Source: a virus. Taken from it: 28,168 nucleotides of DNA. Below, piece by piece: positions 851-24,547 of the stretch (its first letter is position 1; every line of letters begins with the position of its first letter). The DNA lies in the IMG/VR virus record IMGVR_UViG_3300012954_000052, positions 1-28,168 of that record; one strand, written 5' to 3'. The notes under the pieces were generated by a model. It saw nothing but the letters and a program-made list of their open reading frames with translations, had not been told where the DNA came from and ran no database searches. Made by a program: the position numbers and the translations under genes.

Positions 851-3800
851 TTATTCGAACGAAACACCGGCGTTAGTAATAATGAAATCGATTGAAATAA
901 ATTCAATAGTTCTTGTCGGCACGATAATAATCTTACCATTTAACCTATTATTTTCTTTGTCAAGTTCCGTATTATTAGTATCGTCCATTACAATTCTAAA
1001 GGACTCAATTCCTTGCTGGGCTTGAATCAGTGAAAGTCTAGGAGAAACTAAGTTAATAAATCTATCCCTTGTAGACTGATTATTTTGTTCAAAAAGAAGT
1101 CTATCAGCAACACTAATTACCTGACGCTTGAGTTCAAGCAACATGCGACGAACGTTAACACGGTCAAGTGCTGATTTTGCAACCTGTAAGGTCTTTTGCC
1201 CAAAGATCACGAAGTCTCCACCAGGGAATGTTGCAATCGGATTAATTCTTGCATCATACAGTTCATCGCGGTCATTCGTTGTCAATCTTGTTGCTACATT
1301 CTTAACAAACCCAAGAGATCCGCGGCTGAAACCAGCAGGCGCAAACCAAGGATAAGCTACAGAATCTGTGAAGGCTAATGCTCCGATAGCTGCAACTGAC
1401 GAAGGCACTCTTACATTTCTTCCACCGTTGACTTCATCCTCAATGAATACATCCGGGAAGTAGACTGCAGAATAGTTATTGTCTATGTTTCTTCTAGTGA
1501 ATTCTTCTGACGTCTTTTGAACGCCTGGTCTTGCACTGGAATCATCAAAGAGTCTGTTACTGTCTTCATCATAGTTTGGAATATCCATAAGATAAATTGA
1601 CATGCTGTAATCTTTGTTAAGATCAGCCGCATAATCAGTCACATACGGATCTCTAATTCCTGGAATAGCAAGAATATTCGTACGAACAGTCATTGGGTCA
1701 GTCATAATTTCAGCAGCTGCTCTGTAAGAAGCCACAACATTATTGCTCTTGCCGGCGCCGCTCATCGTACCGTCGTCTGTTCCAACTAATCCCATACCTC
1801 CAGTTACGCTATCTGCAGCTTTTCCACCGGCTTCGGTAGACGCAGACTTGTCGTTCATTCTTGCATTATCTCTATCAAGAATGTTCAAGCCATCAAATCC
1901 GCCATGGAAAATGTTTGTGAACTTTGCAAAACCAGTAAACCTATTGAATAGCAGCGAACTAGAGTTAATCAAAGTTGCAAAACTAATTCTGTTTTCATCT
2001 TCAATTACGTCGTGTACCGTATAGTTTTTCTTATTAACGTTACCGTTTCTAATATAAACAGCCTCTTTCATGTGTTGACTTGCGGAACCAGTTAATGATC
2101 CGTTAGTATCAATTTCTCCAGTGGCCGTCAAAGTTTGTCTAAGTGCAACTCTTGCAAGCGTAAACTTGTGATTATGAAAAGTGTCTGACACAGCTCCATC
2201 GGCTGTCAATGCATCCAATTTTTGTATACCAGTAAGTTTTGTGTATGTACGAACCAAATCGTTGACACTTGAACCAGCATTTGCGTTTAGAACGTTTGCA
2301 CTACCACTTGCGATTCGATCTGTTTTCACTCCCCAGTAGAATCTTGCATCAGCGCGTTCTCTTAATCCAGGCATACCGAGATAATTTGGAGATGCTGCAA
2401 CAGCACCTTTGGTTACCTTATAACGATAAGGAAGCGGAGGAACAATAGATCCAGTCAGGGTAGTCGCATCTTTGCAGAACAACCGTGCTGTTCCAAGACT
2501 GTAAGCACCATCATCAGAGGTTGGGTTTGTTCTGGTCGGAGAAGTGTTCAAAGCACCGAGTCCCCTAAAGCCGAAAGGCAAGGCAGCATCAGGTACTTCA
2601 CCAGACTCTATTTCTGTGCTCATCTTGACACGAACATAAGAAGATCGATTCGGATACTTGCCAGACAATACTAGCCTTCTTTCATCTTCATTTGCTTCAT
2701 CGAAGTTAAATCTGACCTTGAAATCTCCAATAACTCTTGCAATGTATCGTTCATTGTTTGGATCTAAGCTTAGACCAGGGAATCTTTCGAGAATTTCTGG
2801 TGCAAGATCAGCATCATCGAAGCGTCGTACCTGAACTTCGAATGTACCAAACTCATTATTAGGATCAGTTGAAGCCTTGATGTCAGCAATAGAGATCTTA
2901 AACTTATCGTTTGCATGAGCTCCGTCAGAAACACACTCAAAGTGGAAAAGATCGAATTCAGTGCCGCCAAATGGCTGACTAATAAATTTTGTTGTTTTAG
3001 GAGCAGCGTACCGGGTATCAAATCGTCCGTATAATTCATTGAAACCACCTGATACTGTTGCACCAGCACCGGTTACACTTGCAGCAGAACCAGAGACAAG
3101 AGCAATACTGCCGGCGGCGGTTCCAACCTGAGCAAGTTCGTCTTCAACCGAATAATCCCAGTACAACAAGTGTTGTTCTTCAGCGAACATATCTGGATCT
3201 GTATTCAATACCTTTCCAACGTAGTAAGCATCGTTTGGATCGAGCGAAGCAGTATACATTCTGTAACCATTTACACCATCGTCATCGCCAAAGGTTTGAC
3301 CCTGTGAAGAAAAGATACCAATCTTAAATCTTCTGCTAGCATCGTGCTTAGCAAGATCATCGGTAACGCTGTTCTTAGCTACCGCAAATTCATCGGTGTT
3401 AAAGACAAATACGTTTGATCCGGTTGTTGTCATAATACCAGCACGAATCAAGAAAGCAGTATCGGAAGCAATTGCTGCGGCTGTATCTCCACCGGTGAAA
3501 GTTCCTACATCAACAATGTTATGCCCACCAGCACCAGTGTCTGTAATAGTGGCAGAGTTTCCTGCAGTTCCAGCCGTATCCACGGTGATCGTAATTTTTG
3601 TCGCCGAAGAACCTTGTTTTGCTGTAAGGCCTTGTACACCTACTGTTGTTTGGCCGTTGCCCGAAGAAGCAGGGTCGATGTTTGCGTTGGCAGTACCATT
3701 GATTGCGTCAATAATAAGTGCGGCAATTTGTGCATCGGTCTGGGAATCATGTGAGCCGATTGCAATTCTGTTAGCGCCTTCGACAGGATTAGTAGTTTCT

Positions 3801-4423
3801 CCAGCGTCAAGAAAGATTTCGGTTACATTACTATTACCAGTCTGTCCGCCCGCAGCCGTCGGTACAAAAAACTGTAAAAGTGTGTCGTTAGCAACCGAAG
3901 TTGTGTCAATAGCATCAGTAGCAGTTGCTTTAGCATCTTTTTCTCTTACACCAGGGAAAGTATCGTTATCTGTAAATACTGGGAAGCCAATATCACTGTT
4001 TGCCGGGATTGTGTGCTTTGCCGTAAGGAAAACTACACCACCAGGCTTTTGACCGGTCAAGGTCGCCTTTGTTCCAGTAGATGTAACTTTAAATCCAGCA
4101 TTTTTAACGATTCCACCAAGCGATGTGTTTGCAATGTCGCCAGTAGTTGAATTTGCACCAGCACCGAGCACACGAGTAAAGGTTACAGCATTTCGGTGCT
4201 TTAAAAATTCCTTAACAGCGTATGGTCCAAATTGCTTTGGGTTAAGGCTTCCAAACCTTGTTTCAAAGTCTCTAAAGTTCCCGACAGTGACAGGCACAAA
4301 AGCCGGCCCAAAGTCGGATGTGCCAACGACACCCGCGGGTGTTCCTAATTGTCCTCCGGTTCTTGTCGAAAGATCGATTTCCTGTTCAAAGAAACCGGGG
4401 CTTCTAAATGTTTGTTCAGCCAT
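851..4423 (-). CDS. 18: Tail sheath protein (gp18-like), unusually long at 1190 residues
   Basis: This is a contractile tail sheath subunit. The N-terminus (SPGFFEQEIDLS, then GTPAGVVGTSDFGPAFVPVT) and the C-terminal third (TDYAADLNKDYSMSIYLMD, then an AYPWFAPAG motif, FVIFGQKTL and LNGKIIIVPT) match the sheath fold. T4 gp18 has 659 residues, so about 500 extra residues are inserted between these conserved parts. Around residues 190-320 the insert holds a beta-rich stretch (IAALIIDAIN, then TAGTAGNSATIT) of a type repeated in many phage structural proteins. These domains probably sit on the outside of the tail. The start is supported by AGGAG 9 nt upstream and by matching the paralogue below. 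It follows gp15, as a tail cassette would, and a palindromic late-promoter-like box precedes it. Confidence 0.93.
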   Translation of the reverse strand: MAEQTFRSPGFFEQEIDLSTRTGGQLGTPAGVVGTSDFGPAFVPVTVGNFRDFETRFGSLNPKQFGPYAVKEFLKHRNAVTFTRVLGAGANSTTGDIANTSLGGIVKNAGFKVTSTGTKATLTGQKPGGVVFLTAKHTIPANSDIGFPVFTDNDTFPGVREKDAKATATDAIDTTSVANDTLLQFFVPTAAGGQTGNSNVTEIFLDAGETTNPVEGANRIAIGSHDSQTDAQIAALIIDAINGTANANIDPASSGNGQTTVGVQGLTAKQGSSATKITITVDTAGTAGNSATITDTGAGGHNIVDVGTFTGGDTAAAIASDTAFLIRAGIMTTTGSNVFVFNTDEFAVAKNSVTDDLAKHDASRRFKIGIFSSQGQTFGDDDGVNGYRMYTASLDPNDAYYVGKVLNTDPDMFAEEQHLLYWDYSVEDELAQVGTAAGSIALVSGSAASVTGAGATVSGGFNELYGRFDTRYAAPKTTKFISQPFGGTEFDLFHFECVSDGAHANDKFKISIADIKASTDPNNEFGTFEVQVRRFDDADLAPEILERFPGLSLDPNNERYIARVIGDFKVRFNFDEANEDERRLVLSGKYPNRSSYVRVKMSTEIESGEVPDAALPFGFRGLGALNTSPTRTNPTSDDGAYSLGTARLFCKDATTLTGSIVPPLPYRYKVTKGAVAASPNYLGMPGLRERADARFYWGVKTDRIASGSANVLNANAGSSVNDLVRTYTKLTGIQKLDALTADGAVSDTFHNHKFTLARVALRQTLTATGEIDTNGSLTGSASQHMKEAVYIRNGNVNKKNYTVHDVIEDENRISFATLINSSSLLFNRFTGFAKFTNIFHGGFDGLNILDRDNARMNDKSASTEAGGKAADSVTGGMGLVGTDDGTMSGAGKSNNVVASYRAAAEIMTDPMTVRTNILAIPGIRDPYVTDYAADLNKDYSMSIYLMDIPNYDEDSNRLFDDSSARPGVQKTSEEFTRRNIDNNYSAVYFPDVFIEDEVNGGRNVRVPSSVAAIGALAFTDSVAYPWFAPAGFSRGSLGFVKNVATRLTTNDRDELYDARINPIATFPGGDFVIFGQKTLQVAKSALDRVNVRRMLLELKRQVISVADRLLFEQNNQSTRDRFINLVSPRLSLIQAQQGIESFRIVMDDTNNTELDKENNRLNGKIIIVPTRTIEFISIDFIITNAGVSFE

Positions 4424-8082: not shown

Positions 8083-8835
8083 TTAATTATGCGGCCCGGC
8101 AGGTTTATTACCGTGCTTTGTTAAATACTCCATTGTCAATGGAAAGGCATCATATATGTTGTTTCGCAGTGAGGAATAACCGTAAAAGTAATCACTTGCC
8201 TGATCGGGTAGAAATTTTTTGCCTGATTTCATTAAAGGAAGCGGAAAATTAATTGCTAATTTATCCTGGCATTCTCTAGCCAAATTTTGATAAAGCAGCA
8301 CAATATCCGAACCTGCCACCATCGATTCATTGATTCTTTTAAGAGTCTGTATCGGTGTTTCTATCGGAGCTTCAGACTCTTTATAAATTGCGGCCCTATA
8401 ATCTGTTTGTATCCAATCAATAAACTTGCGATAAACATCTTTTCTAGTATCGCCAGTCAGTGGACAAGTATGTGATTTAAACGCGAGCATATCTGGTCTG
8501 CGGTGTGCCCACCAATAATATGACACTAATTGTTCGAGCGGATCTCTTGCAATTGTTATTTTTTTAAATTCACTAATAGGCTTACTAAAATTTAGCAAAT
8601 CCCAAAGAAACTCTAGTCTATGAGGCCCACAGTGTTCGGCCTTGCCATTATTTAAATAGGCATACTTTTCGACATTTTTGCCCCAGTCTCCGTAATTTTC
8701 ATCATACCCAGATTGCCCAGTACAGATATCTGTATCTCCAAGCTTATATTTCAAAGCAATTGCGTATTCAACAGATGTGCCGGCACATTTCATTGGCTTA
8801 TAAAAAATAAAGTTGTGTTTCTCGGATATTATCAT
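8083..8835 (-). CDS. Sulfotransferase family protein
   Basis: This 250-residue protein looks like a PAPS-dependent sulfotransferase of the Sulfotransfer_2 type. Residues 8-21 (NFIFYKPMKCAGTS) match the 5'-phosphosulfate loop, usually a hydrophobic strand, then PK.(A/G)GT(S/T). Around residue 100, ITIARDPLEQLVSYYWW matches the 3'-phosphate-binding motif with its RDP and Ser. Such enzymes move sulfate from PAPS to a sugar or other hydroxyl group; the target here is unknown and could be host surface glycan or a virion glycan. I chose the ATG at 8835: the alternative GTG at 8874 lies inside the terminator stem just upstream, and the family motif begins right after 8835. No strong Shine-Dalgarno is visible. 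It sits between structural genes and is not a T4 core gene, so it is probably an acquired accessory gene. Confidence 0.75.
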   Translation of the reverse strand: MIISEKHNFIFYKPMKCAGTSVEYAIALKYKLGDTDICTGQSGYDENYGDWGKNVEKYAYLNNGKAEHCGPHRLEFLWDLLNFSKPISEFKKITIARDPLEQLVSYYWWAHRRPDMLAFKSHTCPLTGDTRKDVYRKFIDWIQTDYRAAIYKESEAPIETPIQTLKRINESMVAGSDIVLLYQNLARECQDKLAINFPLPLMKSGKKFLPDQASDYFYGYSSLRNNIYDAFPLTMEYLTKHGNKPAGPHN

Positions 8836-8862
8836 GCACAGAATATAATCACCGTCTACAAC

Positions 8863-8896
8863 AAGTAAAACCACCCGACCATTGCTGGAAGGGTGG
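8863..8896 (-). terminator. Intrinsic terminator after the 132-residue gene
   Basis: On the minus strand CCACCC pairs with GGGTGG; inside a small TT/TC internal loop, CCA pairs with TGG around a GCAA (GNRA) tetraloop. The tract TTTTACTT follows. It lies 27 nt after the stop at 8924 and just before the sulfotransferase start at 8835, so expression of that gene depends on readthrough or on a promoter between 8836 and 8870. Confidence 0.82.
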
Positions 8897-9522: not shown

Positions 9523-11433
9523 TTAGATGATGTTCATATCCAAACAGGTAACAGTACCGTAGAAGTCAGATCGAACCATCTTCTTGCCATAACGAGTCAT
9601 GACACCCTTACGAGGAGTGAAGTCCTCAGGAGCAAAGATAGTAGGAGTGACGATCAGAGGCACATAAGGTGCATAGACGTATCCAGTCTCAAGGTATGAA
9701 CCACCCTTGTATCCAAGAAGAATCTTGTTACGTGGGAAGTAAGGATCCTTGTAAACAGTGAATCTGTTCGACAAGTTACCAACTCGCTCAGCGCCGATGG
9801 AGATAGCCGAAGCTTGTCCGTCACCGTCTAAAGAGTAAGAGGGCTTGTACAATACAGAAGACTCAAGGATAGTTGCAACATCAGGTCCAACGACGATGAA
9901 GTTAGCAGATCCTCTCAAGGTCTTACGATGGATGGTGTTAGCAGCATCGATAATAGTCTCAATAAGAGTCTCGTACCATTCACGAACCGTACCAGTGAAG
10001 GCAGGGCCGCCAGCCAAAGTAGATGCCTTTTCAGCAACTGTACCAAGTTCCTTGTTGACAAACTTACCAGGAGCACGTGACCAGAACAAGTTTGCTCCGT
10101 TTGCTTGGGTAAGAAGATTGTTAAGGATCTCACGGTCAAGTTCAAGAGCGATTTGCTCAGAAAGGATTTGAGTAAGCTCAACCTCAGCATCCAAGCTGTG
10201 ATAAGCGTTCAAGTCCTGAGCAAGCTCTGGAGACCACTTGGCCTTCAACTTACGAGATACTGCAGTAACAGCGATCGATTCGATCTTGATGTCAATTTCT
10301 GGAATACCAGAAGCATCACCGCCAGAAGCAGTTGCAACATTCAAGTTAGACTCGAAAGATGGGATAGTTAATGCATCACCCTCGTCTCCAACGTTCAAGG
10401 TATCACCCTGTACGAAAGACAATCCAAGTTGATCAGCACCAGTTGCAAGAGAAACAGTTCCGCCGTTTCTGATAGCAACCATCATGATGTGAGTACCGTT
10501 AATAGGATCAACAGTTACAGCAGGAGCTGCAGTAGTCGAAAAGTTTACTCGTTGGTTCAAACGACGAATGTTGATTACGTCATTACCGGCTTGCATGTTC
10601 AATGACGAAGGTGCAGTAGTTGCAGTCGGAATTCCACCGTCTTGTGCAACAAGCGCAATATCTTTGACCATTGTGAAGTCAGCAGAGGTGTTACCGGAAG
10701 AACCAGTAACGTCACCAACAGGTACAAATAAGAACTGAAGGGTATCGTCACCGTTCGTTACTAATTGCTCAAGCTGAGGATCGAACTGAAGCAATCGACC
10801 AACAGTACCGGTCAAAGCAGTTGCAGCAGGAATATGAGAACCGGTCACGAATGAGCCGTTTGAAGCAAAAGCACCAAAACCACCGTTTCCGACGTTCATG
10901 TTAAGACCTTTAGTGCCAGTGTTGCTGTGCTTACGAGAGTAACCAGAACCAGCAAGATCGTATTGACCACCAACAGCAAGAGATCCAGAACGAACTCCCT
11001 TACCAGAAGGACTGTTATAGATAGATTGACCTTGGCCATAAGCACCATCAGTAGCATTAATGCCACCTTGACTTGTACCATAAGTGTAATCTAAGTAGAA
11101 CAAAAGTCCACTTGGAAGTGACATTGGTTGGATAGAAACGATTTCGTTCGCAACCAATCCACCGAATACACGACGAACGATTGGGAAAGCAACGTTTTGG
11201 AATCCACGGACATCACCAGAAGAAACTCCTGATCCGTTAGAAAGAGTAGAGCTCTCGCGAAGTGCTTGAGCAGCTTGGTTTTCAAGAAGAACGGCCATGT
11301 TTTCACGGGTTTGTCCTTCAAGACCTCGAAGAAGACCAGTACGGTTCCACTTCTCGGTAAGTCGACGGTATTGAGCACCAACATGTCGTTGGCGAATGCC
11401 CTCAGTCAACTGATTTAATGTAAATTTTGACAT
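9523..11433 (-). CDS. 23: Major capsid protein (gp23-like)
   Basis: This is the HK97-fold hexamer subunit of the head. Several blocks match T4 gp23: IVRRVFGG followed by VSIQPM near residue 95, WSPELAQDLNAYHSLDAEVE (T4 YSIELAQDLRAVHGMDADAE), FIVVGPDVATIL, GYKGGSYLETGYVYAPYVPL (T4 GYKGPNEMDAGIYYAPYVAL) and the MTRYG motif near the end. It has 636 residues against 521 in T4; the extra length lies mainly in a Gly/Ser/Thr-rich segment around residues 130-380 and may form a surface domain. L58-R59-E60 before S61 aligns with the T4 site LTE65/A66 where gp21 removes the N-terminal peptide. The ATG follows GGAG, 42 nt after the scaffold gene, and a strong terminator follows the stop. Confidence 0.96.
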   Translation of the reverse strand: MSKFTLNQLTEGIRQRHVGAQYRRLTEKWNRTGLLRGLEGQTRENMAVLLENQAAQALRESSTLSNGSGVSSGDVRGFQNVAFPIVRRVFGGLVANEIVSIQPMSLPSGLLFYLDYTYGTSQGGINATDGAYGQGQSIYNSPSGKGVRSGSLAVGGQYDLAGSGYSRKHSNTGTKGLNMNVGNGGFGAFASNGSFVTGSHIPAATALTGTVGRLLQFDPQLEQLVTNGDDTLQFLFVPVGDVTGSSGNTSADFTMVKDIALVAQDGGIPTATTAPSSLNMQAGNDVINIRRLNQRVNFSTTAAPAVTVDPINGTHIMMVAIRNGGTVSLATGADQLGLSFVQGDTLNVGDEGDALTIPSFESNLNVATASGGDASGIPEIDIKIESIAVTAVSRKLKAKWSPELAQDLNAYHSLDAEVELTQILSEQIALELDREILNNLLTQANGANLFWSRAPGKFVNKELGTVAEKASTLAGGPAFTGTVREWYETLIETIIDAANTIHRKTLRGSANFIVVGPDVATILESSVLYKPSYSLDGDGQASAISIGAERVGNLSNRFTVYKDPYFPRNKILLGYKGGSYLETGYVYAPYVPLIVTPTIFAPEDFTPRKGVMTRYGKKMVRSDFYGTVTCLDMNII

Positions 11434-11475: not shown

Positions 11476-13230
11476 TTATTTTTTCAAACCGGCTAAAACT
11501 GCCCATCTTCCGAGCTCTGATCCATTGTTGGCCGGGGCTGACGACCGAACAGATTTGCTAGCGGAACCAGTTCTAGAAACACTCTCGTTCATAGTACCGC
11601 CCTTAGTACTACGTCCTTTTTTGAGTGATTCGGTTAGTGAGGTGTAAAGCAATTTAGCCTCTCGGAGCGTCTGGGCATTATCTAGGGCCTCGACTATTGC
11701 TCTCTGTTGCTTTACATTGAGATCGTAACTTTGCATTAACTTATTAACATACAATAACTTTGCGTTGAAAAGATTTGACTCTTTTAATTCTTTCTTAGCT
11801 GCAGCAGCTTGTCTCTTCAAGAGTTTAGCTTCTTTACGAGCTTCAGCAAGTTGGTGTTGCGCGCGACGGTATCTTCTTCTTTCCGAAAGTGCAGCACCTT
11901 GAGATGAACCTCCGCCATATTGATCAGCAGCAGCTTCAGCGCTTCCAGATCCATCAACGTTTAATTCTGCACCTGCAGAATCACCAAGCTCTTCGGCCAA
12001 AGCATTAATCAAGTCTGCTTCCGTAACCTCGATGACTTCATCGGCGCCACCGTGCATTGCGGCAACTGGGTCACCCATTTCAGCAAGTCTGCGACGTCTT
12101 GCCATTCTACGACGACGTGATTCTGCCAATCTTGCGCTAGAACGTCTCGCTCTACGGCTCTGGGGCTTACGCTTTCCAGAAAGACGAGCGATTTCGCGTC
12201 GTAACATTGACTCAGAGATTTCCATCATTTCGTCCATCTCATCTTTTTCGTCCATGTCATCCATGTCATCCATTTCGTCAGCTTCGTCCATGTCATCCAT
12301 GTCATCCATTTCATACATTTCATCATGATCGGCTTCTTCAAGATCAAGATCTAAATCATCATCTCCACCTTCTTCGTCTTCTTCGTCACCTTCGTCATCT
12401 TCGTCTTCAGCTTCGACTTCAACGTCTAAGCCTAAAGCAGCGCCGAGATCTTCTAAAGCAGATGAAGCCGCATCAACGTCTACATCTCCGCCAGCATCGC
12501 CTTCTTCTGTCTCCACGTCGAGATCTAATTCGTCTTCTCCACCTTCTTCATCTTCTTCTTTCAAAAGCCACCAAGCATTTTCATTAAGCCGGCGACCAGC
12601 ATTTCTACGTCTCATTACGTTATTCTCCTTTAATAGTAAGTTTAGAGCGTTCAATTTGGTTTGGCTGTTCTTATCGCCAGCCTCACTCATAATTATGAGC
12701 TTCTGTCGAATTGTTCTTATTTCCTTTAATAAGGCCTTTTGAACTTTTCGACTTTTTGTTTCATTGAGCGCTCTTAAAAGCTGTGAGACACTCATTTTCT
12801 TGATATTGGTAACTTTCGAACCTTTTTTAGATTCAACAGTAACTGAAACTTTTACTTGTTTTCCATCTTTTTCAAATGAAAATTCTGTAGGTGCAGCCGG
12901 AACAGCTATAGGTTCCACAGGGGGAGCCATATCAATTGGCGGCACCTCTGAGGGCAAAGCTGATCCCATATCTGAAACAAGATCATCCGCAGCTGCTTCA
13001 ACTGGCATGTCTTCTGCTTCAGCGGCTTCAGCGTCATCACCGGAGAAGAATTCAACTTCTTCTGGGATGTCATCACCTGCAGCTTCGTCGTCAAGGTCAG
13101 CTAATTCATTTTCAATTAACAATTTAATCCTTGGGGCGACTGCCTCGATTATTTTATTTGTGGCGTTTTGTTCCGCAATTTCACGAAGCTTTTTCGCATC
13201 GTCTAATGCATCTTTGAATAATTTGCTCAT
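11476..13230 (-). CDS. 22: Prohead core scaffold protein (gp22-like)
   Basis: This 584-residue gene directly precedes gp23, the place of the T4 prohead core protein gp22 (269 residues). The N-terminus (KLFKDALDDAKKLREIAE) and C-terminal part (residues about 455-545, ending LREAKLLYTSLTESLKK) are helical coiled-coil segments; the helix LLYVNKLMQSYDLNVKQQ resembles gp22-type scaffold ends. Between them lie a very acidic tract (residues about 225-330, runs of Asp, Glu and Met) and then a very basic tract rich in Arg (about 340-375). Several L-x-E sites (e.g. LAE before ARK) fit cleavage by the gp21 protease, as expected for a core protein that is degraded. The role rests on position and composition more than on direct similarity. 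Confidence 0.72.
   Translation of the reverse strand: MSKLFKDALDDAKKLREIAEQNATNKIIEAVAPRIKLLIENELADLDDEAAGDDIPEEVEFFSGDDAEAAEAEDMPVEAAADDLVSDMGSALPSEVPPIDMAPPVEPIAVPAAPTEFSFEKDGKQVKVSVTVESKKGSKVTNIKKMSVSQLLRALNETKSRKVQKALLKEIRTIRQKLIIMSEAGDKNSQTKLNALNLLLKENNVMRRRNAGRRLNENAWWLLKEEDEEGGEDELDLDVETEEGDAGGDVDVDAASSALEDLGAALGLDVEVEAEDEDDEGDEEDEEGGDDDLDLDLEEADHDEMYEMDDMDDMDEADEMDDMDDMDEKDEMDEMMEISESMLRREIARLSGKRKPQSRRARRSSARLAESRRRRMARRRRLAEMGDPVAAMHGGADEVIEVTEADLINALAEELGDSAGAELNVDGSGSAEAAADQYGGGSSQGAALSERRRYRRAQHQLAEARKEAKLLKRQAAAAKKELKESNLFNAKLLYVNKLMQSYDLNVKQQRAIVEALDNAQTLREAKLLYTSLTESLKKGRSTKGGTMNESVSRTGSASKSVRSSAPANNGSELGRWAVLAGLKK
12248..12312 (-). repeat. In-frame 36-bp tandem repeat in the acidic tract of the scaffold gene
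   Basis: A 29-bp block starting at 12248 recurs exactly at 12284, a period of 36 bp. It encodes the repeated DEMDDMDDMDE unit. Shorter TCATCCATG units repeat within it. The repeat keeps the reading frame, so changes in copy number would lengthen or shorten the acidic tract without breaking the gene. Confidence 0.85.
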
Positions 13231-13283: not shown

Positions 13284-13511
13284 TTAATTTCGCTTATTTT
13301 TTTGCGCCCTTCTCTTCCCAGCCGCAATTTTTCTTCTTCTTTTCATTCCACGCGTTAGTGGGAAAACTTTCTCCCTTAACTCTTTTACGATTCCAGATTT
13401 CTTATATTTTCTGTTGAAAGCCCTAATAAGCCTATCATTCTGTTCTTGAACAGACCCTTTTGCTTTTCTAGGATTACTCTTTACAGAGAAATTATACTTC
13501 TTTAAACCCAT
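13284..13511 (-). CDS. rpsU: Ribosomal protein bS21 homologue
   Basis: A 75-residue, very basic protein. Residues about 25-65 (DRLIRAFNRKYKKSGIVKEL followed by REKVF, then KRRRKIAAGKRRAQK) align with bacterial bS21, whose core reads like DxALRRFKR...KAGVLxEVRRR...F then a Lys/Arg-rich tail. Length also fits (bS21 is 57-75 residues). The first 20 residues (NFSVKSNPRKAKGS) are an added basic arm. In bacteria bS21 binds the 30S platform near the 3' end of 16S rRNA and takes part in translation initiation. bS21 is the ribosomal protein most often reported in phage genomes. The start overlaps the previous stop by 10 nt, so it is translated within the head operon. A DNA- or scaffold-binding basic head protein is the main alternative. 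Confidence 0.72.
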   Translation of the reverse strand: MGLKKYNFSVKSNPRKAKGSVQEQNDRLIRAFNRKYKKSGIVKELREKVFPLTRGMKRRRKIAAGKRRAQKNKRN

Positions 13512-14062
13512 TGTTGCTCCAAAATAATTAACCTTACTAGGTACCTTATTTCATCTAACTGTTTTTTGGCAATATCTTCAATAGTGTAAGCTGGTTCGTC
13601 GGAGTCTTCGTCGGAGAAACCCAACATTGTTGAATAACCTTGTTTTGATCCGGTAGGTCTAGAGTGACTTGTAAAACCACTTGTTGGGCCTTGAGGATAT
13701 CTAGGAGCTGTGCCTAGCGGTGATCTAGATCTGTTTTTATACAGATCAGGAATAGGATTCATGGAGTTTGATGCTTCGCCTAAATGCGCATTTGGCCCTA
13801 CAAGTGACTGACTCTCGATGTCCGAATATGGAAGGGGATCATAATTGCGAGGCGATTGCTGTTTTGTAATTACTGCATCGATTGTTTCTTCGTCGACGTC
13901 AATATCTTCAAGATCAGCCGACGGTTCAACATAAGGAAAGGTAGGATCACCGTGCACTCTATTCTTAAAGTACTTTGCAGTGAGCCTACCATATCCTAGG
14001 TCATCCCTAGAGTCGCCAAAACTTTTTGGGAAATTATTATTACCCGCTAGGGAATTAGTCAT
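13502..14062 (-). CDS. Unknown head-cluster protein, 186 residues
   Basis: No family recognised. The first 130 residues are rich in Pro, Ser, Asn and Gly and look mostly unstructured, with an acidic patch near residue 52 (DLEDIDVDEETIDAV). The C-terminal 35 residues (YTIEDIAKKQLDEIRYLVRL) form an amphipathic helix that could bind a partner. The ATG overlaps the previous stop as TAATG; the stop overlaps the bS21 start by 10 nt, so it is translationally coupled on both sides. Its place between protease and scaffold genes suggests a part in prohead assembly or DNA packaging. Confidence 0.78.
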   Translation of the reverse strand: MTNSLAGNNNFPKSFGDSRDDLGYGRLTAKYFKNRVHGDPTFPYVEPSADLEDIDVDEETIDAVITKQQSPRNYDPLPYSDIESQSLVGPNAHLGEASNSMNPIPDLYKNRSRSPLGTAPRYPQGPTSGFTSHSRPTGSKQGYSTMLGFSDEDSDEPAYTIEDIAKKQLDEIRYLVRLIILEQQWV

Positions 14063-15717: not shown

Positions 15718-16329
15718 CTATTTACTCCACTGTAAGACGTCGTTGAATATTCTATTTAAACGATCGGTCTTGTTAAAAACTTTTCTGAGTTCTGCTTCAG
15801 TGATTTCTCTTCCCTCACGCATCATAAAAGCACCTGGAGTAGAAGGCTCGCTAACAAAATCCCAGCAAATAAGCTGAAAATCATCTTGCACAACCTGATG
15901 GTCTCCTTCACGTCTAGTAGAGCCAACGCCACGAGAACTAATGCCAAGAGTAACGCCTGATGAAACCAGTGATTTAAGAATTTTTCCAGATGGTGTGTCG
16001 AGTATCTCCACAGTGCCATAACAAACGTCACCGTCCATATAAGCCTCTCGAACGATGTGGGATGCATTTTTAAGCTCAACCACCGAAGAATCCGGATGGT
16101 CCAGCTCTCCGAGAGCTCGATTCTCCTTAATAAACTTTTGGTAATTTCTGACTTCTCTTTCCAAAATCTCATGTGGATATACACGGCCGTTTTGATTAAG
16201 TGTGTTGGATTTTTGAAGGATTCCCTTCATAATTAGCCGGGTGGAACCTGATTCTACTGCTTCCTTTAGCTCGTCTTTATTATATTCCCAAGCACTCCAT
16301 TCTGTTAATAATTTTAATTTATTCATCAC
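15718..16329 (-). CDS. 21: Prohead core protease (gp21-like)
   Basis: This serine protease matures the T4 prohead by digesting the core and trimming capsid proteins. It has 203 residues (T4 gp21: 212). The family pattern is visible: MKGILQKSNTLNQNGRVYP near residue 34, GELDHP with His78, a strand with YGTVEILDTPSGK near 104-116, and VTLGISSRGVGS with the likely catalytic Ser131 or Ser132. DFVSEPSTPGAFM closes the domain. The start overlaps the stop of the preceding gene by 11 nt. The neighbours on the scaffold side carry LxE sites that could be its substrates. Identification is secure. Confidence 0.95.
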   Translation of the reverse strand: MMNKLKLLTEWSAWEYNKDELKEAVESGSTRLIMKGILQKSNTLNQNGRVYPHEILEREVRNYQKFIKENRALGELDHPDSSVVELKNASHIVREAYMDGDVCYGTVEILDTPSGKILKSLVSSGVTLGISSRGVGSTRREGDHQVVQDDFQLICWDFVSEPSTPGAFMMREGREITEAELRKVFNKTDRLNRIFNDVLQWSK

Positions 16330-17167
16330 TATCTCCCGAAAGTTCGCTGATTATCTCGTGCATCGTCATTGCTTTTACGATGTCGCTTTCGTTAATTTCT
16401 TCTTGAAAGCTAGTTGCTTTGATATTCTTGTAAACTTGCTCTAAATTTTCAGACAATACCTTGTTACCACACTCTTGTTTGTAAAAAGAAATTGCTTCAA
16501 TACATAATTTTTTCGTAGCTTTTAATTCTGAAACTAATTCCGGAGACTGCCCGTTAACTATCCATTCATTCACTAATTTCATCTGCGGTTCAGACAAATT
16601 TTTTGTGTAAGTCTTAGAAAATTTGTCTCTCATCAAATTTACAACCAATGAATTAATCTTTGGTTCTTTTAAATCAGATAATTCATGTGACTTTTTCTCT
16701 GTTAGAAGGATGTTTGTTACTTTGTCGGAATATTCTAAAATATTTGAATAATCTGATTCTGAACCTTTTTTATACTCGTTTAAAAGCATGCCAATAGTTG
16801 CGAGATCACGATAATTTTTTACTCTGGTAGAATAAAAAGATTTTCCAAAGGCTTCATTGATAGTTCTGATAAGCTTAGATTTTTCTAGGTCTAGCTTCCT
16901 AGTGTTAATTCGCCAGGTTGCCTTTTTTGTCTCTTCAAGTATGGCAGGTACTACACTCTTCTGAGTTATGTGTATATCAGCCAAACTATTAACAAGCCGG
17001 TGTTCTTTATACAGCTCTGTGCCTTTCTTAAAATACTTCTTTACAATATTTCTTGTTTCGTTAAAAGTTTTTTTGTCGTTTTCTACCAACGCCTTGGACA
17101 GTTTAAGTACAAGCTGTTCATAGATAATCCCGACATTTCGTTTTTTGTTGTGGGATTTTTTACTCAT
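16319..17167 (-). CDS. Unknown helical protein between portal and protease (gp67/gp68 position)
   Basis: A 282-residue, Lys-rich and probably all-helical protein. I start it at 17167, where GAGGAAA stands upstream and the gene overlaps the portal stop by 8 nt; a longer frame to 17221 would run deep into the portal gene. It begins KKSHNKKRNVGIIYEQLVLK, has several helical stretches and ends acidic (EIISELSGDSDE). T4 has the small prohead core proteins gp67 and gp68 at this point between genes 20 and 21; this one is larger. An I-N-E before A site (TINEAFG) could be a gp21 target. No homology beyond position can be claimed. Confidence 0.78.
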   Translation of the reverse strand: MSKKSHNKKRNVGIIYEQLVLKLSKALVENDKKTFNETRNIVKKYFKKGTELYKEHRLVNSLADIHITQKSVVPAILEETKKATWRINTRKLDLEKSKLIRTINEAFGKSFYSTRVKNYRDLATIGMLLNEYKKGSESDYSNILEYSDKVTNILLTEKKSHELSDLKEPKINSLVVNLMRDKFSKTYTKNLSEPQMKLVNEWIVNGQSPELVSELKATKKLCIEAISFYKQECGNKVLSENLEQVYKNIKATSFQEEINESDIVKAMTMHEIISELSGDSDE

Positions 17168-19151
17168 CGTCTTTTTCCTCGTTATCAAGTTTGAATTCTG
17201 ATTCTCTTTCCTTTGTTTCATTTAACATGCTTTTATTAACTTTACCAAATGACTGACTAAACGAATTTAAAGAACGCTGCATACTAACATCTAGACGCGG
17301 CTTCTCCATAGATAAGTATTCGCTATCATCGTTAAAAAGAAAATCAGATAGTTTTGCTTCTTTAAAAGTGCTGCCTAACAAAAAATCTTCATCGTAAGGC
17401 CTGTTCATAGAATCTTGAGTTCTTGTTTTACTGCCAACACTTGTCATGCTTGCAAAGTCAGGCATGTGAGTTTTTTCACGTTTGATTTTATTTTTCTTTA
17501 ATTTTTCCCCAAACGCGTTTTTCGCATGCTTCGATTTTTTTACACCAGAATAATCGACGTTTTCTAGATCGATTTCATCTAAATCTTCGTCTTCGTCTTC
17601 AGAAATTTCGTCTATCTCGAAATATGTCTGATTGTCATTATCAATTGATCCATCAAGCAGGTTACCTATGGTGGTATCACCGGCGAAGAGTCCGCCTCCT
17701 TCGTCGCCACCGGCATCGTCTCCACCTTCATCACCTCCGCCGCCGCCGCCGGGAGGCTGCGCATTTTCGATTTCAGTTGCAACTATTTTTTCTGCAATCA
17801 TTTCTTCATCTATGCGCTCGATGTCGTCACGGGTGAAGCCCATAACGTTTTTCCTGATCCAGGTTTTACTCACCATTCCTTCTGGAGCAGAACCAGCGAT
17901 TGAGAACTTTGTGTTTATTAATTCAAGCTTTTGTTGTTGCGCTATGGAAGAAGGATTGCTTAGATTCAGTTGAAAATCTAGTAATTCCTCGTTGTCAAAA
18001 CCATGTGCATACAAATGAATCATTGCCATCTTGTTTAGTTCTGCAAGTATTGTTTTCTGTATGCGAATAATTGTTCTAGAAAACCTGATGTCTTCTTGGG
18101 CCAGTGTTGCTTTTGAACCGATATCTTCATCATAGCCAAGATATGCTTTAGGAATCTTTAAAGCAGCAAACAACTTCTTCTGAATATACTCAACGTCTTC
18201 AATTGCAGAAGTATTTTGTCCACCTGCAAGCGTGTCGATTCTTGTACCGGAATCTCCGCCTCTAACAGGAATATAATAATCTTCATCAACGGCCATTGGA
18301 TTATATCGCAAATCGACATTTCCCGTAGATTTTTGCACGACCTGGTTTCTCTTAAGGCTTGTTTTGGCTTGCTCAATATAATTAGCAACGTCTTCTGGAG
18401 GCACATTACCAACGTCGATGTAAAAGACACGTCTTTCTGGTGCACGGATCACTCGATATACAAGCATTGCATCTTCAATCAAAATCAGCTGACGCCAGAT
18501 TCTTCTTGCTGATTCTAAAACACTCGAACCATAAGGCAAAAAAGCGTCATTGCCCAGTAATCTAAAATGAGATACTTGCCAATTATCAAGTGCTTGGTTT
18601 CCCTGAGTTATCCAACGAAACCTAACTGCACTTGGGTCATTTGCATCAAAACCTTCTTCTCTCTCTATTTCAGTAATTGATATTGGGTATGCATTAATAA
18701 TGCCATACTCAGGGTCAACGTCATTAAACAAAAAGAAATCACCATATTTGCAAAGATTTCTTACCCACATGACTAGATTAAAATCAATGTTAAGAGTATC
18801 GTAAAAAAGAGTTTCTAGCAATTCCTTAATTTTTCTATTTTCAGAATGAATGTGTAGACTTTTTCCAAATGCATCTGGGGCGCACGACTCTTCAGCATAA
18901 ATATCAAGCGCTGAGGCTATTTCTGGGGTACTTTCCATCTCAGAGAAGTCAGAATATCTAGCCATTCTGTCAAAAGTGCCGTAAGCACTCAGCGTGGAGT
19001 TATAAACATCCGAATGAGCTTTTTTGAATAAGTTGACTGCGGACGATGCACTAGCATCTGATTTATTAAAGTTTCTGACCCTTCGCTTAATTGTCGGCCC
19101 AGAAGAAAATAACTTTGTTAATCTAGAAAATAAATTTTGTTGTTCGGCCAT
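17160..19151 (-). CDS. 20: Portal protein (gp20-like)
   Basis: The dodecameric portal forms the DNA entry vertex of the head. Strong family blocks: DRMARYSDFSEME then PEIASALDIYAEE near residue 65-85, LCKYGDFFLF near 137, the PYGSSVLESARRIWRQ region near 210, and YRVIRAPERRVFYIDVGNVP near 235-255, almost as in T4. It has 663 residues against 524 in T4. The added part is after about residue 440: a Gly/Asp-rich stretch with six Gly in a row, then acidic and Lys-rich segments, probably a flexible tail. The start at 19151 lies 16 nt after the terminase stop. The order gp17-gp20-gp21 is the T4 one. Confidence 0.96.
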   Translation of the reverse strand: MAEQQNLFSRLTKLFSSGPTIKRRVRNFNKSDASASSAVNLFKKAHSDVYNSTLSAYGTFDRMARYSDFSEMESTPEIASALDIYAEESCAPDAFGKSLHIHSENRKIKELLETLFYDTLNIDFNLVMWVRNLCKYGDFFLFNDVDPEYGIINAYPISITEIEREEGFDANDPSAVRFRWITQGNQALDNWQVSHFRLLGNDAFLPYGSSVLESARRIWRQLILIEDAMLVYRVIRAPERRVFYIDVGNVPPEDVANYIEQAKTSLKRNQVVQKSTGNVDLRYNPMAVDEDYYIPVRGGDSGTRIDTLAGGQNTSAIEDVEYIQKKLFAALKIPKAYLGYDEDIGSKATLAQEDIRFSRTIIRIQKTILAELNKMAMIHLYAHGFDNEELLDFQLNLSNPSSIAQQQKLELINTKFSIAGSAPEGMVSKTWIRKNVMGFTRDDIERIDEEMIAEKIVATEIENAQPPGGGGGGDEGGDDAGGDEGGGLFAGDTTIGNLLDGSIDNDNQTYFEIDEISEDEDEDLDEIDLENVDYSGVKKSKHAKNAFGEKLKKNKIKREKTHMPDFASMTSVGSKTRTQDSMNRPYDEDFLLGSTFKEAKLSDFLFNDDSEYLSMEKPRLDVSMQRSLNSFSQSFGKVNKSMLNETKERESEFKLDNEEKDDE

Positions 19152-19167: not shown

Positions 19168-20757
19168 CTATTTAAGTAGCCAATCAAGGTTTTTGAAAGG
19201 ACTATTTTTTGAGTCCCAACTTTTTGACACATCCAAAGTGTAATTACTACCTTCGGTTGTAATTGCAGCAGGTTTTATTACTGTATCGCTGATTTCAGTT
19301 CTGTTAACACCAAAACCAGCCAACATTGCCGCGTTTACGTCAACAGTTTGTTTGTTGTATTGTGGACTAGTATCGTACAACCAGACTCCAATCGCAAGGC
19401 TCATAATTAAGTCATCATTTGCTCCCTTTCGGGCCTGAGCCTTTTTTCCTTCCCAAACAAAAGTTTTCATCTCTTCGTAAAATCTGCTAGAATAGACGGT
19501 TATTTGTTTCGTACGCAAAACCTCTTCTAATTTTGTGAGTATCATGTTTCTAGACTTTGCCTGCGTACTGAAACCTGCTTTTGCAATATCTCCACCGCCA
19601 TATAAAAAAGAATAGTAATCCTTTTCATTTTCAAAGTAGATATTCTTGTAGTCAATATCTCGCAACTTCATAATGACAGCATAGCCGTACGAATTACTTT
19701 CTGGACATATTGTCGCATTGTTGTATCTTCGGCCGGCCTCAGCCAAAACTTGAGCAAATTTGTCTGGTGGTAGTTTTCCTCTATACTCACATACTACGGT
19801 CGATAGCTCTGTATCTATCACATGGAATGTAGAATAATCAGTTGCATCACCCCTTGAAACGTCTGCTGAAATCACGTATTTTTTAGAGCTCAAAGGATAG
19901 TTCCATATCCAGGCATTCATATCAGGTCCCCATTTTTCAATAGGATTCTTTATCATCTGCCTAAAATGCTCGATGTCTTCTGCCTGAAGAAATGTTTCAC
20001 CAGACGCCTGAAAATCACAGAGAAGCTCTTGCGCAATCTGTTTTTTTGACATGTTCCTTGTTTCTTCTGCAAACCATTCAGCATCGCGATCTGGGTGCAC
20101 ATCCCACGCAAGTTTTATTGCATTGAAAACATTTTCTCCAGACTGCGCTTGCATCCAAAGATCATAATACTGTCCTCCAACACCATTCGGGGTCGAAAGT
20201 ACTATCGCACGACCACCGGTTGACAGTGTAGGATAAAGACCGGTCCATATAGTATCAAAATTCCTTACAAACGCTGCTTCATCTACGATTAGTAAAGACA
20301 GGGCTTCAGAACGGCCGGCGTCTTCTGATGTAGGTATTGCCTTTATTGTGGAACCATTTGAAAATTCAAGTGCCTGCTTATTATTGTTTACTATTTCAGG
20401 CAAGAGTAGCCAGCTAGGCATGGAATGTAACACAAACTTTACTTTACGAATAAAGTTTTGTGCTACAGATAATTTAGTTGCAATTACTAAGATGTTTTTA
20501 TCTTTGTAAAAAATAGCTAGCCAGGCAGCATACGCTGCAGATATTGTTGAAAGACCTAGCTGCCGGCTTTTAAGTACTATATTAAACCTTTCTTTTCTAA
20601 AATGATCAACGCAATCATCTTGAAACTTGTAGGTTTTAAATGGTATAGTACCTTTGGTAGGATGCTGGATCTTTACATATTTGTTAAAGAAATGTGTCGG
20701 ATCTTTGCCGCACCTTATAATTTCTTTAATCTGAGCCTGTTTATTACGAGGAGCCAT
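19168..20757 (-). CDS. 17: Terminase large subunit (gp17-like)
   Basis: This is the DNA packaging motor and headful nuclease. ATPase motifs: Walker A SRQLGLST (64-71), Walker B LLIVDE (155-160) with its catalytic Glu, and coupling motif LSTPNG (187-192). The RNase H-like nuclease has ISADVSRGDATDYSTFHVID with Asp299 and Asp304, Glu353 in CPESNSYG, and a late acidic NDDLIMSLAIG. It has 529 residues (T4 gp17: 610) and no sign of an intron or intein. The ATG overlaps the previous stop as TAATG, so it is coupled to the unknown 131-residue gene. It acts with the portal encoded just downstream. Confidence 0.97.
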   Translation of the reverse strand: MAPRNKQAQIKEIIRCGKDPTHFFNKYVKIQHPTKGTIPFKTYKFQDDCVDHFRKERFNIVLKSRQLGLSTISAAYAAWLAIFYKDKNILVIATKLSVAQNFIRKVKFVLHSMPSWLLLPEIVNNNKQALEFSNGSTIKAIPTSEDAGRSEALSLLIVDEAAFVRNFDTIWTGLYPTLSTGGRAIVLSTPNGVGGQYYDLWMQAQSGENVFNAIKLAWDVHPDRDAEWFAEETRNMSKKQIAQELLCDFQASGETFLQAEDIEHFRQMIKNPIEKWGPDMNAWIWNYPLSSKKYVISADVSRGDATDYSTFHVIDTELSTVVCEYRGKLPPDKFAQVLAEAGRRYNNATICPESNSYGYAVIMKLRDIDYKNIYFENEKDYYSFLYGGGDIAKAGFSTQAKSRNMILTKLEEVLRTKQITVYSSRFYEEMKTFVWEGKKAQARKGANDDLIMSLAIGVWLYDTSPQYNKQTVDVNAAMLAGFGVNRTEISDTVIKPAAITTEGSNYTLDVSKSWDSKNSPFKNLDWLLK

Positions 20758-21153: not shown

Positions 21154-21417
21154 TCATTTCTCCTTGACTATATAATAATTATTAAGCTTTTTGTGAACTT
21201 GCTCTTTTTTTGGTCGCCAGCCGTTTTTCCACCTTTCTTTATTCGGCCAATAGAAAAATTGTTGACAGTCTTGGCAAGCCCCATAGTTTTCCATAGACTC
21301 TATATCTTCTAAACCATTAAGAATCAGTTTGCATACAGGGCAATCAAATTTTGCTTTTTTAAAGTCATGTTCAATCACAATGTCAAACTCTTTTTCTACT
21401 TTAACTATGTTATCCAT
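21154..21417 (-). CDS. Small zinc-ribbon protein
   Basis: An 87-residue protein with two Cys pairs, CPVC near residue 25 and CQDC near residue 47, about 20 residues apart: a zinc ribbon. After the second pair come aromatic and basic residues (QQFFYWPNKERWKNGWRPKK) that could contact nucleic acid. It begins 8 nt inside the end of the Mre11-Rad50 fusion gene and ends one base before the next start, so it is tightly coupled. A role in DNA binding or as a small transcription or packaging factor is possible; the sequence does not say which. Confidence 0.75.
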   Translation of the reverse strand: MDNIVKVEKEFDIVIEHDFKKAKFDCPVCKLILNGLEDIESMENYGACQDCQQFFYWPNKERWKNGWRPKKEQVHKKLNNYYIVKEK

Positions 21418-24400
21418 AGACTACCTTCGCATTTTTATCGTAACTAGTTATTTCAATAATATCATCAACGCAATCCTTTACGAGGTCGACATGGCTGATC
21501 AATACAATTAGACGATACCAATTTCTTAGCTTTTGTAAAAGGCTGGTGACTGCTTCGATGTTTGCAGAATCAAGAGAACCAAAACCTTCGTCAATAATTA
21601 ACATATCAGATTTTGATAAAGAGGAAATGTTTGTTAGTGCAACACGCAACGCAAGACTAGATACCATTTTTTCCATTCCACTGCCGCACTCGATCGGCCT
21701 TCGGCTATCCCCATAATTAATGTACATTTCTGTTTTTGAGTCATCTACTTCTAGTTCGATTGTAAAACCTACAGATTCCTGCAAGATCGATCCGAGCTCT
21801 TCGTTAATTGCAGGTACCATAGACTGTAAGATAGTTGCAGGAATGCCACGCCAACTTGTGGCAGCCATTAGAAATTCGTAGACCGACCAATCAACGAGTA
21901 TTTTATCATACTGCTTTTTCTCAGCTTCAAGGTTATCTAATTTCTCTTGGTATACACCGATCTTTGTAGTTGTTCTAGAAAGAATTTTTTGAGCCGATTC
22001 TTTTTCAAGTCTAACAGTATATATTTCATCTTTGAAACCGTCTCTTTGTTCAATGAGCAAAGGGTCAGATGCTTTTTTTGCAACGCCTAACATTTCTGCT
22101 AAAACACTCTTCTTATTTTCTCTGCTAGAAAGATCGGCCTGATTCTTTTCACGATCTAGTTCTAACTTAGATAATTTTAGTTTAAGTTCAGTAACTTTTG
22201 ATTTTCTTTTATCAAAATTATCTACATAGTTCTTTGCATGTTCATAAACTCTTTTGTCAATTTTATCACGAAGCGTTGTAATTGCTGTCTTAACATCTTC
22301 TTGCTTCGCTCGTACACTTGGCACAAGTTCTTTTGCCTCTGATGCTTCTTTTACAAATTCGTTATCACAACAAAACCTACAGTCTGGATCGTACTCGTGA
22401 TTCTTTAACAAGTCTATTTTGCTCACAAGATACTTTTCTTCTGTTGCTAGTTTATCAGAGGCCTTTGCTAATTGAGAAAGTTCTTCATACACAGCATCAA
22501 TTTCTGAGACCGTATTAGAAAGTCTATCGTATTCACGAGCATCGAGAGCTCCTTCGGCACCAGTAATTACTTTTTTTGCTTTGCCTATTTTTTTATCAGC
22601 ATTAGCTACAAGGATCTTTAAATTCTCTATAGCATCGTTATTTTCATCGATTTTTTTAACAATTGTTGGTATGTCATCGACATCAACCGTAATCTGAGAT
22701 TCAATGGCTTGAAGTCCACCTAAAAGTAATTCCAGCTTTTTCGTTAGGCCCTTGATCTCTTCAGTAGAATCATCTCGTTTAGATCGCAAATCCTTAAGCG
22801 TATCCAAAAGTTCAATTCTAATTTTTTCATAATCTTTGCCTTTGAATGTTTTCATCTTGGTTTTAGTTTCAAGACTTGCATCCCTAAAAACCTTGTTTAA
22901 CTCGCTAAATACGTCCAGCCCAAGAAAGCGACAAATTGTTTTTCTTCTTTCGGAGCCTCCAAGGTTAATGAAATTATTCATGCCACCCTGAGACGCAAAG
23001 GAGGTAAGCAAAAAGTCATCACTCGTACCAATGAGTTGTGTTAGATCTTTTTCCGTTTCGCGTCTCTGTTCTCCAGACATGTCTCTAATAATTGCTTCTT
23101 CATCATCAACTTCATATAAATTGAGATGCGTCATAACAGTCTCTGAACCTCTAGAAGTGCACTTAACAGATTGTCTCTCGGTTCTATACGATTTTTCATT
23201 AACTGAGAAAGTTATTGCTGCTTGACAATAATCGGCTCTTGCGTTTACAACGTGCAAATTAGAAACTATTCCACGATCGTTCTTATTAAAAAGACCATAA
23301 GTCAATGTTCCAGGTATACTTGATTTTCCAGCCCTGTTTCTTCCGAATAATCCAATTATGCCATTTAATTTTGTAAAGTCAATTAAGTTATCTTTTCCAT
23401 ACCCAAAAGTATTGTCAAATTCCATCTTCTTGATTGACCATCTATTACCGTGCTGCAAGGCTTTTAAAGAATTAGAAAGAGCAAAATCGACTTGCTGATC
23501 GATTTCTGCCCAAAATGATTCAGTTCTGGTTGTGTCTCCATTGTATGTGCGAAGAAGCTTTTTAATCGTTCTGTCATCAAGAGTACCAGACTTTGCTATT
23601 TCGCTTACCTCTTTAGATAGCGGCATTTCTTTATTCGTGGTGTCATACTTAAAAACGACATCGGATGCGCCAGAATCTTTTCTTATCTTTTTAGATATTT
23701 TTCTAGCCAGAGCATAAGGCAATCTTTCGTTTGCTCTAATTCTTACCCGGGTACCCTCTGTGAGATTCTTTGACTGATCGATGATTTTATCAAAATCAGA
23801 TTCCCAATCAAGCGTAACGTAGGGATGTACATGCGGAATCGGGTGAAACTTAACATCAAAGTGGTTTTTATCTTCTATCTGCCAGAAAAGAAAACCTTTT
23901 TGTTGTGTTTCTCCAAAATTTTGTGGCACAGTAGAACCAGAGTACCAGATTCTTTTTTCTTTGTCCAAAGACTGCCGTTTATGAATGTCTCCAAGCATTC
24001 CAAAATCATAGCCCTTGAATATATCAATACTATCATCACCTTCGAGCATAAAGTCCATATCAGTATGTGAACCCCAGATTGCACCGTGATAAAGAGCAAC
24101 GTTGACGTCACCCTTTTTCGGTCTTGCCTTACCCCAGCCTGCTGTATCAAAACAACTAAGCACGCACCAATTAAAGCCAGGATGATTCTTAAAAGGAAAG
24201 CAGCCTGAATCTTTATAAAAAGAAATATTTGGATTATCGAGAGCATCAATAATTGGGCTGACTGTATCCATTCTATCGGCATTAAGCATTAGCCCATCAT
24301 GATTGCCAAGAATGACAACAACGTGACTTATCTTGGCCATCTCATTAAACCACCATGACAGGTTTGAAATGAGCTCAGGGCTAATATTCTGAGTCTTTGA

Positions 24401-24547
24401 GTGAACTATATCGCCACCAATATAAATATAGTCTGGTTTTAGTTCTCGACACTTTTCAAAGAATATCTCGAATGTTTTCCTGTATTCTTCGTGTCTACTA
24501 AGACCTCGCCAGTGTACATCTGCAATGTGTGCAATTTTAATAGTCAT
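21410..24547 (-). CDS. 47-46: Fused recombination nuclease: gp47 (Mre11/SbcD) joined to gp46 (Rad50/SbcC)
   Basis: One 1045-residue chain holds both halves of the end-resection complex. Residues 1 to about 350 are a calcineurin-type nuclease: IADVHW (8-13), GGDIVHS (44-50), GNHDG (81-85), YHGAIWGSHTD (153-163) and GDIHK (186-190). Residues about 368-1045 are an SMC-type ATPase: Walker A GRNRAGKSS (402-410), long coiled coils around a zinc hook CRFC (723-726), then the CGSGMEKMVSSLALRVAL signature and Walker B MLIIDEGFGSLD. In T4 these are separate genes 47 and 46; their complex processes DNA ends for recombination-dependent replication. There is no internal stop. Its start overlaps the primase stop as ATGA. 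Both active sites look intact. Confidence 0.95.
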   Translation of the reverse strand: MTIKIAHIADVHWRGLSRHEEYRKTFEIFFEKCRELKPDYIYIGGDIVHSKTQNISPELISNLSWWFNEMAKISHVVVILGNHDGLMLNADRMDTVSPIIDALDNPNISFYKDSGCFPFKNHPGFNWCVLSCFDTAGWGKARPKKGDVNVALYHGAIWGSHTDMDFMLEGDDSIDIFKGYDFGMLGDIHKRQSLDKEKRIWYSGSTVPQNFGETQQKGFLFWQIEDKNHFDVKFHPIPHVHPYVTLDWESDFDKIIDQSKNLTEGTRVRIRANERLPYALARKISKKIRKDSGASDVVFKYDTTNKEMPLSKEVSEIAKSGTLDDRTIKKLLRTYNGDTTRTESFWAEIDQQVDFALSNSLKALQHGNRWSIKKMEFDNTFGYGKDNLIDFTKLNGIIGLFGRNRAGKSSIPGTLTYGLFNKNDRGIVSNLHVVNARADYCQAAITFSVNEKSYRTERQSVKCTSRGSETVMTHLNLYEVDDEEAIIRDMSGEQRRETEKDLTQLIGTSDDFLLTSFASQGGMNNFINLGGSERRKTICRFLGLDVFSELNKVFRDASLETKTKMKTFKGKDYEKIRIELLDTLKDLRSKRDDSTEEIKGLTKKLELLLGGLQAIESQITVDVDDIPTIVKKIDENNDAIENLKILVANADKKIGKAKKVITGAEGALDAREYDRLSNTVSEIDAVYEELSQLAKASDKLATEEKYLVSKIDLLKNHEYDPDCRFCCDNEFVKEASEAKELVPSVRAKQEDVKTAITTLRDKIDKRVYEHAKNYVDNFDKRKSKVTELKLKLSKLELDREKNQADLSSRENKKSVLAEMLGVAKKASDPLLIEQRDGFKDEIYTVRLEKESAQKILSRTTTKIGVYQEKLDNLEAEKKQYDKILVDWSVYEFLMAATSWRGIPATILQSMVPAINEELGSILQESVGFTIELEVDDSKTEMYINYGDSRRPIECGSGMEKMVSSLALRVALTNISSLSKSDMLIIDEGFGSLDSANIEAVTSLLQKLRNWYRLIVLISHVDLVKDCVDDIIEITSYDKNAKVVYG

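Follow-up and report, generated by a model that had tools for sequence, protein, structure and literature searches.

A divergent bS21 gene in the head operon of a T4-like phage, present or absent at one site among its relatives

Background

Among the ribosomal proteins encoded by viruses, bS21 is the most frequent. On the ribosome, bS21 sits by the anti-Shine-Dalgarno (anti-SD) sequence (PMC9723584, PMC9976891). In Flavobacterium, the choice of mRNAs by ribosomes shifts when bS21 is changed or removed, and in the Bacteroidia stacking of the Tyr54 type hides the anti-SD (PMC9976891); a Tyr54-type aromatic residue was also found by Chen et al. in the bS21 proteins of their phages (PMC9723584). 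The bS21 of phage HTVC008M enters E. coli 70S ribosomes, and E. coli ribosomes carrying it had an in vitro translation activity of ~5 % (PMC6375957). In freshwater phages, bS21 genes are transcribed at high levels along with capsid genes, and Chen et al. (2022) proposed both a late replacement on the ribosome and a packaging of phage bS21, the latter untested (PMC9723584).

The window analyzed here is the whole stretch of 28,168 nucleotides of IMG/VR virus record IMGVR_UViG_3300012954_000052 (positions 1 to 28,168), and its bS21 gene was compared with those of three described systems. Microcystis phage Mel-JY01 (PP395634) likewise has a head operon of the T4-like type, in which the TerL, portal, protease, scaffold and capsid genes are homologous to those of the window, and its bS21 gene (WWT39311.1, annotated RpsU) is also located between the protease and the scaffold/capsid genes on the same strand. 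Its protein is more canonical (EYIKPSEER) and too distant to be reached by tblastn from the window protein, and Mel-JY01 infects a cyanobacterium. In the freshwater Bacteroidetes huge phages (PMC9723584), bS21 also lies in the TerL-portal-protease-capsid region, and high late expression is a feature of these published phages. However, in these phages bS21 and the structural genes run on opposite strands and do not share one operon, and the Tyr54 site keeps an aromatic residue. The window gene is co-directional and overlapping, no aromatic residue follows Phe50 in its product, and the window genes use SDs. With HTVC008M (KC465899) the window phage shares the combination of a marine T4-like phage and bS21; the HTVC008M protein is a strong canonical match (59.4 bits) and its gene is found at 91.2 kb, with the head genes at 66-77 kb.

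The window bS21 is a head-region gene in the sense of Chen et al., as TerL, portal, protease and capsid all lie only a few genes away. It belongs only to this wider kind and is placed outside the five clades of Chen et al. (2022), because it shares the strand of the structural genes and its product has no aromatic residue beyond Phe50. As phage bS21, its capsid-side location, its late expression and both functional ideas discussed below have been published (Mizuno 2019; Chen 2022), the gene is not a new phenomenon. The present case adds a co-directional overlapping placement, a divergent type of bS21 from a clade that uses SDs and, at one site, a clean comparison of presence with absence.

Results and discussion

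Head operon and translational coupling

The head genes are all encoded on the minus strand in the order terminase, portal, a 300-aa ORF, protease, ORFs of 140, 146, 93, 159 and 186 aa, bS21, scaffold and capsid (Table 1). The bS21 ORF has its ATG at 13511 and its stop at 13284, and the translation is a basic protein (pI 11.9), MGLKKYNFSVKSNPRKAKGSVQEQNDRLIRAFNRKYKKSGIVKELREKVFPLTRGMKRRRKIAAGKRRAQKNKRN. An earlier note on this DNA, made from the letters alone, had given the coordinates exactly and left the strand unstated.

Table 1 Features of the head operon in the window
Feature	Position	Strand	Basis
Terminase large subunit	19168..20757	-	PHROG 2, E 1.1e-53
Portal protein (gp20-like)	17160..19151	-	PHROG 213, E 1.1e-76
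Prohead protease (gp21-like)	15718..16329	-	PHROG 207, E 2.6e-52
Conserved 186-aa ORF just upstream of bS21	13502..14062	-	no Pfam/PHROG match
Overlap of 10 nt, 186-aa ORF stop / bS21 start	13502..13511	-	sequence
bS21 homologue, 75 aa	13284..13511	-	TIGR00030, PDB profile, AlphaFold2; strand NFSVK, basic loop, helices, Arg/Lys-rich C-terminus
Presumed prohead scaffold, 584-aa acidic protein	11476..13230	-	position (next gene after bS21) and composition
Major capsid protein (gp23-like)	9523..11433	-	PHROG 138, E 1.9e-72

Gene order and PHROG matches agree with the earlier placement of bS21 just before the scaffold and capsid genes in a late head operon. The 584-aa acidic protein gave no above-chance PHROG match, and its position is conserved in relatives. 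Going by the location in the head operon and by the published expression of similar phage bS21 genes, we infer that the window protein would be made late.

A GGAG motif is found 5 nt before the bS21 ATG, within the upstream 186-aa ORF. In most near relatives the upstream ORF and bS21 overlap by 4-14 nt, with 4 nt (ATGA type) as the commonest length, and a few more distant relatives have a short spacer in place of the overlap. The overlap supports a probable translational coupling of bS21 to the 186-aa ORF. Among relatives, this ORF adjoins bS21 or, where bS21 is absent, the scaffold gene. The earlier note had described bS21 as coupled to a head gene; the overlap was upheld in the window and in most relatives, while the 186-aa ORF is called a head gene by position only as it matches no family in Pfam or PHROG.

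Identity of the bS21 gene

When the 75-aa ORF was searched against family models, it scored 35.0 bits (E 9.6e-9) with NCBIfam TIGR00030 (30S ribosomal protein S21), which exceeds the curated cut-off of 28.95, and 24.9 bits (E 1.6e-5) with Pfam PF01165, narrowly missing the cut-off of 27. The match to PHROG 21469 ("ribosomal protein S21") was weak (E 0.0018). With the window protein as a single sequence, nearly all matches in the PDB were bS21 chains (best E 0.0014). At E ≤ 0.001, a profile of 35 phage sequences picked up 35 bS21 sequences of the PDB, the best of them at 3e-12, and these were bacterial, chloroplast and mitochondrial bS21. In a control search, a profile of the same family gave no match to reversed ORFs (best E 0.92), and the assignment is therefore well beyond chance. 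The sequence comparisons thus confirmed the window ORF as a genuine bS21-family gene, the identity that the earlier note had proposed. Pairwise dN/dS values of 0.04-0.13 (pairs with estimable dS; dS was saturated in the closest pairs) showed that the gene is under purifying selection.

An AlphaFold2 model was calculated from an alignment of 31 relatives, consisting of the window and IMG/VR-derived rows only. The model (mean pLDDT 86) has helices at residues 21-39, 41-48 and 54-74, that is, a small basic fold of consecutive helices in which the expected bS21 helices are seen. The top two hits of a fold search in the PDB were bS21 chains with TM-scores of 0.57 and 0.56 by query length, and their E-values (0.52 and 2.1) are non-significant for a helical protein of this small size. 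The N-terminal strand NFSVK was assigned from the alignment, and the model has no strand there.

Divergence from canonical bS21

The window protein shares with cellular bS21 (rpsU; TIGR00030, PF01165) the helical layout, a K/R-rich C-terminus and an S-G-[IV] core followed by E-[LV]. It differs from cellular bS21 in a longer basic loop between the strand and the first helix and in having FPLTRG in place of [FY]E.P[ST]. In the alignment, NFSVK corresponds to the usual N-terminal strand, which reads NVSVK in canonical-looking relatives, and the basic loop before the first helix is ~6 residues longer than in those relatives. What the earlier note had called an added 20-residue basic arm is thus mostly the normal strand, and the part that stood is the longer loop.

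The same note was right that the usual FE.P segment is missing. Across the clade of the window the segment reads Y-P-x-T-[RK]-G, and intermediates (YESKS, FETKA and HETKS) were observed at this position in other phages. The conserved [FY]E.P segment is a common sequence mark of bS21 and is not required by TIGR00030. Together with the missed Pfam cut-off, its loss bears out the description of the protein as divergent.

After Phe50, the translation contains no aromatic residue or His (the Tyr54 column itself is not alignable, as the PDB matches end before it). Stacking of the Tyr54 type is therefore not available to the window bS21, and the lack of a Tyr54-like aromatic fits with the GGAG or AGGAG found before the start of most window genes.

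Presence and absence of bS21 among relatives

Direct searches returned three near relatives in IMG/VR contigs with 83, 68 and 49 % identity, and the neighbouring genes were the same in all of them. No match was obtained when the window bS21 and two relatives were compared with 50,697 phage records using tblastn, and a scan of genome contigs with the bS21 alignment returned no cellular relative; the relation to known phages was obtained through neighbouring genes and profiles.

A total of 160 loci were collected by capsid and protease homology and then searched with an iterated bS21 profile. The gene order was strikingly constant among these loci, and in 43 of them (including Mel-JY01) the scaffold gene was preceded by a bS21-like ORF of the same orientation. 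Counting only loci with a recognisable 186-aa ORF, and with some contigs reached twice, the distance from this ORF to the scaffold gene was 255-309 nt with bS21 (26 loci) and 25-95 nt without it (50 loci). As the shorter distance leaves the site cleanly empty, bS21 is a discrete cassette at one site.

The protease tree places the window in a clade of 25 rows (SH-aLRT 97), all of them with bS21. Over the 110 rows of the tree the presence or absence of bS21 changes at least 8 times, which points to repeated gain or loss. No bS21 above the family cut-off was found elsewhere in the large contigs lacking the gene at this site (0/20; these contigs may be incomplete). In huge phage LR756508 bS21 is located just before scaffold and capsid. 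Flavobacterium phage immuto has no bS21; a 75-aa ORF after its protease gene was a candidate by size and was rejected as acidic and unrelated.

This clade offers a natural comparison in SD-using, mostly marine phages with very similar head operons with and without bS21 at one site. Effects of bS21 can therefore be sought with the rest of the operon unchanged.

Shine-Dalgarno strength

The earlier note had suggested that a late phage bS21 biases host ribosomes towards phage messages with strong SDs. In the window, GGAG or AGGAG does precede the start of most structural genes by 5-9 nt, whereas the SDs of the recombination and primase genes are weak or missing, and bS21 is located by the anti-SD. 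However, when ten shared structural genes per locus were compared, the mean SD/anti-SD duplex energy was -6.2 kcal/mol in loci with bS21 (n = 32) and -6.4 kcal/mol in loci without it (n = 71; p = 0.27), and the differences in individual genes run both ways. The window mean of -4.5 is lowered by at least two start codons that were probably misplaced by the script (300-aa and 146-aa ORFs). In addition, a host that uses SDs has strong SDs too, so that little selectivity would be gained. The equal strengths remove the comparative support for an SD bias without refuting an effect. The comparison of presence and absence already speaks against the simple "strong SD" explanation, and we regard a specific steering of host ribosomes to strong-SD messages as very improbable.

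Possible functions

We consider it likely that the gene encodes a working phage bS21, made late, which replaces the host bS21 on the 30S subunit. The protein would be translated from the late head-gene message, partly through coupling to the preceding ORF, and would then displace host bS21, which is only loosely bound to the 30S platform, near the anti-Shine-Dalgarno end of 16S rRNA, and can be exchanged. Ribosomes with phage bS21 would keep or tune translation initiation during the mass production of capsid protein. Published work on other phage bS21 suggests both the late expression and the entry into ribosomes. Counting against a ribosomal bS21 are the divergence of the sequence (missed Pfam cut-off and no [FY]E.P), the many close relatives without the gene and the equal SD strength in phages with and without it.

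Entry into ribosomes alone does not show that translation is helped, as the HTVC008M protein cut E. coli translation to ~5 % (PMC6375957). Phage bS21 might instead be mainly a takeover poison that displaces host bS21 and leaves host messages poorly initiated, while phage messages would escape through another phage factor or because they are in excess; the N-terminal loop and C-terminal segment of the clade, unlike those of canonical bS21, would also agree with this. Yet the low activity may only mean that a pelagiphage protein is a poor match for E. coli, and a shut-off protein would be expected early whereas the gene is in the late head operon, where capsid synthesis needs active ribosomes. 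We therefore find a poison unlikely. The other idea raised in the earlier note, that bS21 was reused as a nucleic-acid-binding head protein, received no positive evidence. In this reading bS21 would be a basic internal component of the prohead whose partner is either DNA or the acidic scaffold, and it may be packaged. The gene directly precedes scaffold and capsid and overlaps a conserved ORF of the head region, the strongly positive charge of its product is found beside an acidic scaffold, and packaging was suggested, untested, by Chen et al. (PMC9723584). However, bS21 is not needed for this head type, as the gene is missing from the same head operon in ~50 loci, and what has been kept is the bS21 core, not charge alone. 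A packaging signal of the T4-like kind, in which the prohead protease removes an N-terminal targeting peptide by cutting after [LI]xE, is absent from the window bS21, and no [LI]xE site is conserved: the motif is found in 17 of 31 bS21 relatives, nearly always within the bS21 core and with no common site. A role in the head is thus distinctly unlikely.

A more specific form of the late ribosomal role was also considered, in which the bS21 of this clade has been rebuilt (longer basic loop, no [FY]E.P and no Tyr54-like aromatic) and locked into the head operon by its overlap. The resulting ribosomes would be unlike both the host type and the Bacteroidetes-phage type, for example favouring the long overlapping head-gene message. 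This proposal is speculative and we think it rather doubtful.

Host clues and other observations

When genome contigs were scanned with the capsid protein, only six MAG contigs were found, three of which have a bS21-like ORF upstream of the capsid gene. Their bins are mixed (Halobacteriovorax, Methylococcaceae TMED69, Flavobacteriales, Acidiferrobacteraceae and others) and therefore allow no host assignment. The psbA gene was absent from the nine bS21-containing contigs searched, and no tRNA was found in the window or in ten bS21-containing loci; neither gives a host clue. Contig NHDW01000006.1 (305,838 bases; Methylococcaceae MAG bin) contains a head operon of this phage type with a bS21-like ORF upstream of the scaffold gene. 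It is probably a misbinned phage, and its size is a hint that phages of this type may be jumbo-sized.

Several other genes were recorded. In huge phage LR756511.1, the portal gene (L009:11015-13588, minus strand) is interrupted by an insertion that resembles an intein; its match to Pfam Intein_splicing (E 3.7e-8) falls slightly below the cut-off. The remaining observations concern minus-strand genes of the window. A 1045-aa ORF at 21410-24547 combines phosphoesterase and AAA/SMC ATPase domains in a fused SbcCD-like protein, for which T4 has two proteins, gp47 and gp46. Between the head and tail genes there is a sulfotransferase-like gene (8083-8874) with a weak match to Pfam Sulfotransfer_2 (E 8.6e-4, below the cut-off). 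Two adjacent ORFs with similar N-termini (1-822 and 851-4423) are found in the position of the tail sheath. The second of them encodes 1190 aa and seems to carry a very large insertion, as its sheath domains are confined to the last ~200 residues.
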